Source of the DNA: Balneolaceae bacterium
GTDB taxonomy: Bacteria; Bacteroidota; Rhodothermia; Balneolales; Balneolaceae
Length of the DNA: 41,176 nucleotides
Assembly: GCA_007134085.1 (NCBI GenBank)
Contig: SLLL01000047.1
Location: 1-41,176 of the forward strand
Reading direction: 5' to 3'
The notes beneath the pieces were generated by a model that did not search any database, had not been told where the DNA came from, and saw nothing but the letters and a program-made list of their open reading frames with translations. Below, one piece after another: positions 33,986 through 40,364 of this stretch. The translations under genes and the position numbers were made by a program. Within the stretch, counting starts at the first letter, position 1. Each line of letters opens with the position of its first letter.

Positions 33986-34020
33986 AAAAATCCCGTAGCG
34001 AGAGCTTACGGGATTTTTTT
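33986..34020 (+). terminator. Strong bidirectional Rho-independent terminator
   Basis: AAAAATCCCGTA (33986-33997) pairs with TACGGGATTTTT (34007-34018), closed by an AGC/GCT inner stem, and a run of T follows. The A-run on the other side gives the minus strand a T-run too, so it can end both the alkaline phosphatase transcript and the minus-strand pseudogene that converges on it. Confidence 0.92.
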
Positions 34021-34088: not shown

Positions 34089-34832
34089 TTAGGGAATGTA
34101 GTAGACGAAACTGATCAAACTTTCCGGTGGATAAAAATCATCGATTTCCTCAATACTGTTGAAAGGAAAATTCAAAATGGTACCATCGGGAAAACTTATA
34201 AAAATCTCCTCACTACCATCAAAATCTTCCATTAATCTGATCAGGGAGTTTTTTACAGTTTTGCTCATAATAAGAGTTACACGCGCCTCAGTGTTGTAAT
34301 ATCCGGTATCTGACCCTTCGCTCGCATTTGCTTCAATTAAAGTTCCATCTATTCTGTACTCAGCCGGAATTATTTGAGGCCAGCTTGCAATTTCGGATTT
34401 TAGATCAAGGAAACCTGTTTGCAGCGCTATCGTTTCAAAATCGGTTATGTCAATAAGCTTATTGCTTGCAAGGGTCAATATGCTATTTGTTTCAGGAAGG
34501 TCTATCATTAAAAATGTTAGTCCATCCATTGTATAAAATTCGGCTGCTTTACCGTCTATGTGTAAAGCAGGTTCATGTATGCTTTTATTGTCGCGATATT
34601 CAATTTTAATAATGAAGAGATCATTTCCGTTGAGGTAAATGGCAAGGTATTCTCCCTCATATTCGTTGTCTTCGAACTCTGTTATCCTGTCGAAATGAGG
34701 TATGTTGAGTTTATTAACATGCTCCTGAAAAACCTCAAATTAGAAAAAGGGTTTTTGGAGTAAATCATACTGTGCTTGAACTGAAGCACTAAGCATTAAA
34801 ACGATTATACATGTGCTGATTATTTTTTTCAT
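34089..34832 (-). pseudogene. Secreted protein gene interrupted by one in-frame stop
   Basis: From an ATG at 34832 the minus strand encodes a signal peptide (MKKIISTCIIVLMLSASVQA then QYDLLQKPFF). It then meets TAA at codon 31 (34742-34740). The same frame continues open for 216 codons to the stop at 34089, giving 248 codons in all with just this one interruption. The downstream part is acidic and beta-rich (EFEDNEYEGEYLAIYLNGND, ALHIDGKAAEFYTMDGLTFL, EEIFISFPDGTILNFPFNSI). The first internal ATG, at 34529, would lose the signal peptide, so a working secreted product is unlikely unless the stop is read through. A sequencing error is possible. I recognise no family. It follows the OmpA-domain gene by 166 bp. 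Confidence 0.8.
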
Positions 34833-34998: not shown

Positions 34999-36714
34999 TT
35001 ATTGTATAGTAATCCCATCAGGTATCAGAAAATGCTCTGCTGGTATGCTGATGTTTTCTTTCAAATCAATCATTTCATAAAGTGAGTTATGGGTTTGCAC
35101 CCTTAGAGGCAGCCCTTTGTAATACCAGGTTTTTCTTTCATCCTCTCCTGCACCCTCCAAAAATACAAGGCACTTGTAGCCTGAAACGGTTTCTCTACCC
35201 ACGAACTTTCCGCCTCTGCCTTCAATCAATTTCTGAAATGTGCCTTCATCGTAGTTTTTCACATTTTCGAAATTCTCAATATCTGTTCTGCTTCTTATCT
35301 TTTTTCGGGCACTATTTTCCTGGAAGTTGATGTCATACTTCTCTTCACCATCTAAGATTTCCATGAACTTTGATGGAAATGACTCCCCCCGGGAATTAAT
35401 CACAAGGAAGTTGGTTTCAGCGGCCATTTTTTCAGCTGCAATATCGTGCCAGATAGTTGTGTTGATTTCGTATTTAATATCGCCCTGATCAATCGTTCCA
35501 AACATTTTTAAGAAGTATGATGTAAGGCCACTTGTTCCGGCTTGAGCTTCTTTTAGATTGTCATCAACATTTTGAATGTTTTCAAAGACTTCAGATTTTT
35601 CAATCTCTTCTAAACCTTCATCAATCTTTACAAATTCAACTCTTCGGTTTTGTGCTTTTCCTTCTGGAGTTGCGTTGTCTGCAACCGGTACTGTCTGTCC
35701 GTATCCCACGGATACAAGCCGGTTAGGTGAAATGCCCATATTAATCATTTCATGAACCACAGCATTAGCTCTTGCTTCGGATAGAGTTTGGTTCAAAGTT
35801 TCGCTGCCGTCACTATCGGTATGGCCTTCTACACTGAAGTGCAATTCCGGAATTTGCTGCATCAGCTTTACCACTTCATTGATTATTCCAAAACTTTCAG
35901 GCCGTAAAGTGGCTTTATTAACATCAAAGCGAATACCTGTGGTAACAATTCGCCCGTCGGTAACCAACCTGTCATAAAGCGGAACTGCCCCTTTTGCTAC
36001 GCGTATGTTCTTTATATAGCCTAAATGGCCACCATTTGGGTTGTGGTATGCGAATGTTAACCCAAGCGGATTATAATCCATATTGGGAATGTTTAGCACT
36101 CTCATCTCATCAATGTACACTTTAAGGGTTCCTGTGTTAAAAGAGATGGATATACGCCTCCAGCCAGGCTCAGAGTTAGCATTGTCATCACTCAGGCTTA
36201 TCCCAAACCCCGGATAATGATTGGTGATGGATCCAAATTTTACAGAGTTTTGGGTTATAGTAACCCTGTCCACTCTATTATTACTCCCCGGATTTGCACT
36301 CCTGTTTAATCGCCTCTGGTTTTTACCATCATAGAATAATATCCGGTAGATTCGATTATGCGTTTCGAAGTAGGCATCAAATTCAACCGTAAATTCATCG
36401 GGCAGATAATCTTCATCACTATTTGCCATCAATGGCACGATACCGCCATCACTATTACTATTAGTTCTGATGAACATGATTACATTTTCACCATCCAAAA
36501 CGGCATTTTCTACACTACCATTAGCTAAATCCCATTTGCTTGGGAATGCTCCATTACGTTCGCCTTGCTGATTATCTTCGAAAATAATTTCATCACCGGA
36601 AATAAAATCAAAGTTAGACCAGTCGAGATTTGATTGCTGCTGAGCGATTACCCCATTCATAAAAATCAGGAAAACCACCAGAGAGAGCATCAAACCTAAT
36701 CTTGATATCTTCAT
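34999..36714 (-). CDS. OmpA-domain protein with N-terminal LamG-like and C-terminal extra domains
   Basis: A 571-residue exported protein with signal peptide ending at VIAQ (about 25). Residues ~40-240 form a beta-sandwich resembling a LamG/concanavalin-like domain (FTVEFDAYFETHNRIYRILF, LKVYIDEMRVLNIP, GYIKNIRVAKGA). Residues ~255-365 are an OmpA peptidoglycan-binding domain (GIRFDVNKATLRPES, VEGHTDSDGSETLNQTLSEA, NRLVSVGYGQ, AQNRRVEF). Residues ~395-571 form a further domain (KYEINTTIWHDIAAEKMAAE, WYYKGLPLRVQTHN, PAEHFLIPDGITIQ) that loosely resembles DUF4412-type domains. It should bind the cell wall from the periplasm or outer membrane. OmpA usually ends such proteins, so the C-terminal extension is unusual. 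It has a structured leader. Confidence 0.85.
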   Translation of the reverse strand: MKISRLGLMLSLVVFLIFMNGVIAQQQSNLDWSNFDFISGDEIIFEDNQQGERNGAFPSKWDLANGSVENAVLDGENVIMFIRTNSNSDGGIVPLMANSDEDYLPDEFTVEFDAYFETHNRIYRILFYDGKNQRRLNRSANPGSNNRVDRVTITQNSVKFGSITNHYPGFGISLSDDNANSEPGWRRISISFNTGTLKVYIDEMRVLNIPNMDYNPLGLTFAYHNPNGGHLGYIKNIRVAKGAVPLYDRLVTDGRIVTTGIRFDVNKATLRPESFGIINEVVKLMQQIPELHFSVEGHTDSDGSETLNQTLSEARANAVVHEMINMGISPNRLVSVGYGQTVPVADNATPEGKAQNRRVEFVKIDEGLEEIEKSEVFENIQNVDDNLKEAQAGTSGLTSYFLKMFGTIDQGDIKYEINTTIWHDIAAEKMAAETNFLVINSRGESFPSKFMEILDGEEKYDINFQENSARKKIRSRTDIENFENVKNYDEGTFQKLIEGRGGKFVGRETVSGYKCLVFLEGAGEDERKTWYYKGLPLRVQTHNSLYEMIDLKENISIPAEHFLIPDGITIQ

Positions 36715-39763: not shown

Positions 39764-40075
39764 ATGTACTTTGTTGAGACCTCAATTTTTACAAAGAGAA
39801 TCCATCAATTACTCTCGAATGAAGAGTATAGGATGTTACAAATGAAACTGGTAATAAATCCTGATGCAGGAAATGTTATTAAACAAAGTGGAGGTTTAAG
39901 AAAATTACGTTGGGCTGGATCTGGCAGAGGTAAGCGTGGTGGAATTCGTGTCATCTATTTTTATTACACCAATCCTGACAGCATTTTTCTGTTGTATGTG
40001 TACCCCAAAAATGAAACCGAAGATTTGACTTCAAAACAAATCAAATTTCTGAAATCACTAATTGAAGAGGACTAA
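39764..40075 (+). CDS. HigB/RelE-superfamily toxin
   Basis: A 103-residue basic protein of the RelE/HigB-2 toxin group, predicted to cleave mRNA in translating ribosomes. Recognisable features are the INPDAGNVIKQSGGLRKLRW segment with RGKRGGIRVIYFYY in the central strands, and the LLYVYPKNETEDLT end, all typical of HigB-2/NadS-associated toxins. The Arg and Lys residues around 46-62 are the likely RNA-contacting set. It is full length, toxin first, with the antitoxin ATG one base after its TAA. The operator-promoter in front shows autoregulation. Growth arrest in the absence of the antitoxin is expected from the family, not shown here. Confidence 0.87.
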   Translation: MYFVETSIFTKRIHQLLSNEEYRMLQMKLVINPDAGNVIKQSGGLRKLRWAGSGRGKRGGIRVIYFYYTNPDSIFLLYVYPKNETEDLTSKQIKFLKSLIEED

Positions 40076-40076
40076 A

Positions 40077-40364
40077 ATGAAAGAAGAATTTTTTAACGAG
40101 CTTGTAGAAAGTATAAAGGAGGCAAAAGCAATACGAAGAGGAGAAAAAAAGCCATCTAAAGTTATTCGTATTGAGGATCCCAAAGTGGCAGAGATACGCA
40201 AAAAGCACAAATTAAATCAGGTAGAATTTGCGGCTTTACTCGGTATTAGTGTGGGTACATTGAGAAACTGGGAACAAGGGCGCCGAAAACCTCAAGGGCC
40301 AGCAAAAGTTTTACTCAAAATTGCAGAAAAGAAGCCAAAGGCTATACTTGAATCTTTAACCTAA
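40077..40364 (+). CDS. NadS/HigA-type helix-turn-helix antitoxin
   Basis: A 95-residue Xre-family DNA-binding protein. The N-terminal MKEEFFNELVESIKEAKAIR contacts the toxin. RRGEKKPSKVIRIEDPKV leads into a helix-turn-helix (EIRKKHKLNQVEFAALLGIS, then VGTLRNWEQGRRKPQGPAKV), which matches NadS-type antitoxins of HigB-2-like toxins. It is expected to neutralise the toxin and repress its own operon at the dyad at 39698-39727. I chose the ATG at 40077, one base past the toxin stop, with AGAGGA as a ribosome-binding site. A TTG start at 40062 would add five residues and overlap the toxin. Confidence 0.88.
   Translation: MKEEFFNELVESIKEAKAIRRGEKKPSKVIRIEDPKVAEIRKKHKLNQVEFAALLGISVGTLRNWEQGRRKPQGPAKVLLKIAEKKPKAILESLT

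Follow-up and report, generated by a model that had tools for sequence, protein, structure and literature searches.

The interrupted gene and its surroundings

The window, i.e., the whole stretch of DNA analyzed here (41,176 nucleotides of contig SLLL01000047.1, Balneolaceae bacterium assembly GCA_007134085.1), carries on its reverse strand, from 34832 to 34089, a frame of 248 codons in which the sole internal stop is a TAA at codon 31 (34742-34740). Its translation reads MKKIISTCIIVLMLSASVQAQYDLLQKPFF, then the stop, then FEVFQ...YYIP and the terminal stop, with zero frameshift across the 248 codons. Codons 1-30 (34743-34832, reverse strand) are predicted to encode a signal peptide of about 21 residues (ending in SVQAQ), the cleavage site of which was placed by eye, together with the first residues of the mature protein. 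The 216 codons past the stop (34089-34739, reverse strand) stay open to a proper TAA. Since an open run of this length has a chance of only about 1.5e-7 given the base composition, and since a full-length orthologue exists in another species (see below), the 248-codon frame is a genuine coding frame. The first-pass annotation had described a secreted-protein frame broken by a single TAA, free of frameshifts and open again for 216 codons, and both the translation and the orthologue agree with that description. It had also held that a scan for ATG alone would miss the signal peptide; the only open reading frame that a scan for ATG, GTG, and TTG returns at the locus is indeed the one at 34089-34529 (reverse strand), which comprises the C-terminal 146 amino acids and lacks the N-terminal part of the protein. 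Read in frame, the sequence from the stop down to codon 102 (position 34529) contains no ATG, GTG, or TTG.

Regarding the surroundings, a hairpin followed by a T run, resembling a terminator, lies downstream of the gene (33991-34003, reverse strand). The upstream neighbor on the same strand (34999-36714) encodes an OmpA-family protein of 571 amino acids. About 124 residues of this neighbor, roughly residues 132-255 between its N-terminal domain and its OmpA domain, have no equivalent in its orthologue from the related species described below. Farther away in the window, two adjacent overlapping open reading frames (39764-40364) look, by eye and from their translations, like a RelE/HigB-type toxin paired with a helix-turn-helix antitoxin.

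An intact orthologue in a second species

Apart from the window's own copy, the 59 genomes searched gave a single match, which comes from a congeneric species (G017; Balneolaceae MAG CSSed10_244R1, contig PWLN01000443.1). In this genome the frame is open across the position of the TAA and extends over 303 amino acids from its first possible start. The ATG at which the signal peptide begins in the window is kept, and, counted from this ATG, both genes measure 744 bases and align free of gaps. The two genes are thus alike in their start, their length of 248 codons, their signal peptide, and the OmpA-family gene found upstream on the same strand at both loci, and downstream of the stop their products share 72% identity across the full 216 residues. 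They differ in that the window has TAA at codon 31 where the orthologue has TCA, an ordinary serine codon, and in that the genes downstream are not the same. The first-pass annotation had proposed searching relatives for an intact homologue and for the codon replacing TAA, and had named as evidence against its reading any relative whose protein starts downstream of the stop and has no counterpart of the leader; the intact, syntenic orthologue with its TCA answers the former, and its homologous leader speaks against the latter. As the leader is homologous, begins at the same ATG, and aligns free of gaps, the alignment indicates that the 30 codons belong to the protein.

Beyond this orthologue, no further relatives were found in the genus, family, or order, no paralogue in the genome itself, and no copies in viral contigs or plasmids; weak hits within the family, at E 0.009-0.3, were rejected as chance-level. 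An evenly drawn sample of the phylum returned only the window's own copy; the genome holding the orthologue gave no row there and had seemingly not been drawn. The gene after the nearest long OmpA-family relative in the genus codes, as judged by eye, for a secreted protein other than this one. Profile and sequence comparisons with Pfam, NCBIfam, PHROGs, and PDB gave no significant match to a protein family, and a structure model built from the two sequences was too poor for use (mean pLDDT 45). The gene product is a small, lineage-restricted protein, predicted to be periplasmic or extracellular, whose known occurrence appears confined to two species of a single genus. In its intact form it most likely has a role in the cell envelope, as suggested by the signal peptide and the adjoining OmpA-family gene.

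Selection on the frame and age of the stop

After the stop, the window and the orthologue differ at 47, 25, and 116 first, second, and third codon positions, respectively, with pS 0.79, at which synonymous sites are saturated, and pN 0.16. These values, a sign of strong purifying selection, are comparable to those of the intact OmpA-family neighbor (pS 0.71, pN 0.19), which argues that the frame was under ordinary purifying selection at the protein level until very recently. The signal peptide diverges faster at the protein level, as is usual, and residues 22-30 are constrained again.

How long the frame could have remained open under neutrality was estimated by simulation. With 0.05, 0.1, 0.2, and 0.3 substitutions per site, the probability of acquiring no further stop was 0.33, 0.12, 0.02, and 0.005, respectively, and it was lower still when indels were counted at an assumed 0.1 indel per substitution. 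By this simulation, a long period of neutral drift past the stop cannot have taken place. With approximately 76 of the 247 codons of the orthologue lying one change away from a stop, a single nonsense change is in itself unremarkable. That the frame is both intact and constrained implies that the stop is young relative to the split of the two species, or is absent from the organism, or is ineffective.

Genetic code and alternative explanations

The genome contains prfB (RF2), found above its cut-off, and a second release-factor gene scoring below the prfB cut-off, which is probably prfA (RF1). None of the 28 tRNA genes found in the genome, which is about 91% complete, has an anticodon reading UAA or any other stop, and most genes in the window terminate with TAA. 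An alternative code in which UAA is a sense codon was rejected on these three grounds, and the decoding genes point to the ordinary code.

It could be argued that the gene truly starts downstream of the stop and that the frame of the leader is a coincidence, as the open reading frame returned from 34529 might suggest. The leader of the orthologue, which can be aligned free of gaps from the start across the signal peptide and codon 31, speaks decisively against this reading, as do the conserved residues that precede codon 102 and the lack of any ATG, GTG, or TTG between the stop and 34529; this is the least probable of the explanations considered. Scarcely more credible is an old pseudogene in decay: one nonsense codon is present, but the 248 codons contain no additional stop or indel despite the saturated synonymous divergence, and pN is as low as in the intact neighbor.

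Somewhat less improbable, yet still very unlikely, is that the stop is real and is nevertheless translated, through low-level readthrough or through a hop from the phenylalanine codon TTC before it to the phenylalanine codon TTT after it, so that the full secreted protein is made. A bypassed stop would likewise be expected to leave an intact and constrained frame downstream, and phenylalanine codons do lie on both sides. The orthologue, however, has the same flanking codons around its serine codon, so that these codons do not set the stop apart and are no sign of adaptation to bypassing. No UAA-suppressor tRNA was found among the 28 tRNAs, the 63 nucleotides beginning at the stop are no more stably folded than shuffled sequences (z -0.8) and give no sign of a stimulatory structure, and a literature search on bacterial UAA readthrough yielded nothing bearing on the locus. 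Of the bacterial stops, TAA is generally the most reliable. Programmed readthrough or bypassing is further disfavored by the lack of conservation of the stop, the single relative having TCA. The narrower proposal that the TAA is real and fixed, and is bypassed by readthrough or a hop to give a low level of secreted protein, is more doubtful again, about on a par with the decaying pseudogene.

A probable recent nonsense mutation or base error

Very probably, the TAA either arose very recently through a nonsense change of a single base or stems from an error in the sequence or consensus of the MAG. Under this explanation, one nonsense substitution, at a serine codon that closely follows the signal peptide, would interrupt the gene of a secreted protein, having arisen very recently in the strain or being a base error in the consensus. 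Of the three origins proposed in the first-pass annotation, mutation and sequencing error are both favored by the intact orthologue with TCA at the site, and a stop-codon event found no supporting evidence. Serine was presumably the ancestral state at codon 31, judging from the single relative. If the TAA is real, translation would end after 30 codons; as no ATG, GTG, or TTG occurs before codon 102, the most that could then be produced is a C-terminal fragment devoid of the signal peptide, and the strain would have lost the protein. Loss of function and recency of the stop would both follow from these comparisons.

The gene shows two features of a recent nonsense pseudogene, namely an intact homologue without the stop and an undecayed downstream frame. 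It is like recent nonsense pseudogenes of bacteria in its single premature stop, its otherwise intact frame, and its intact homologue, and differs from them in nothing, the base itself being putative. The importance of the case lies mainly in annotation, as gene callers will give a truncated protein of 146 amino acids without signal peptide instead of the secreted protein of 248 codons.
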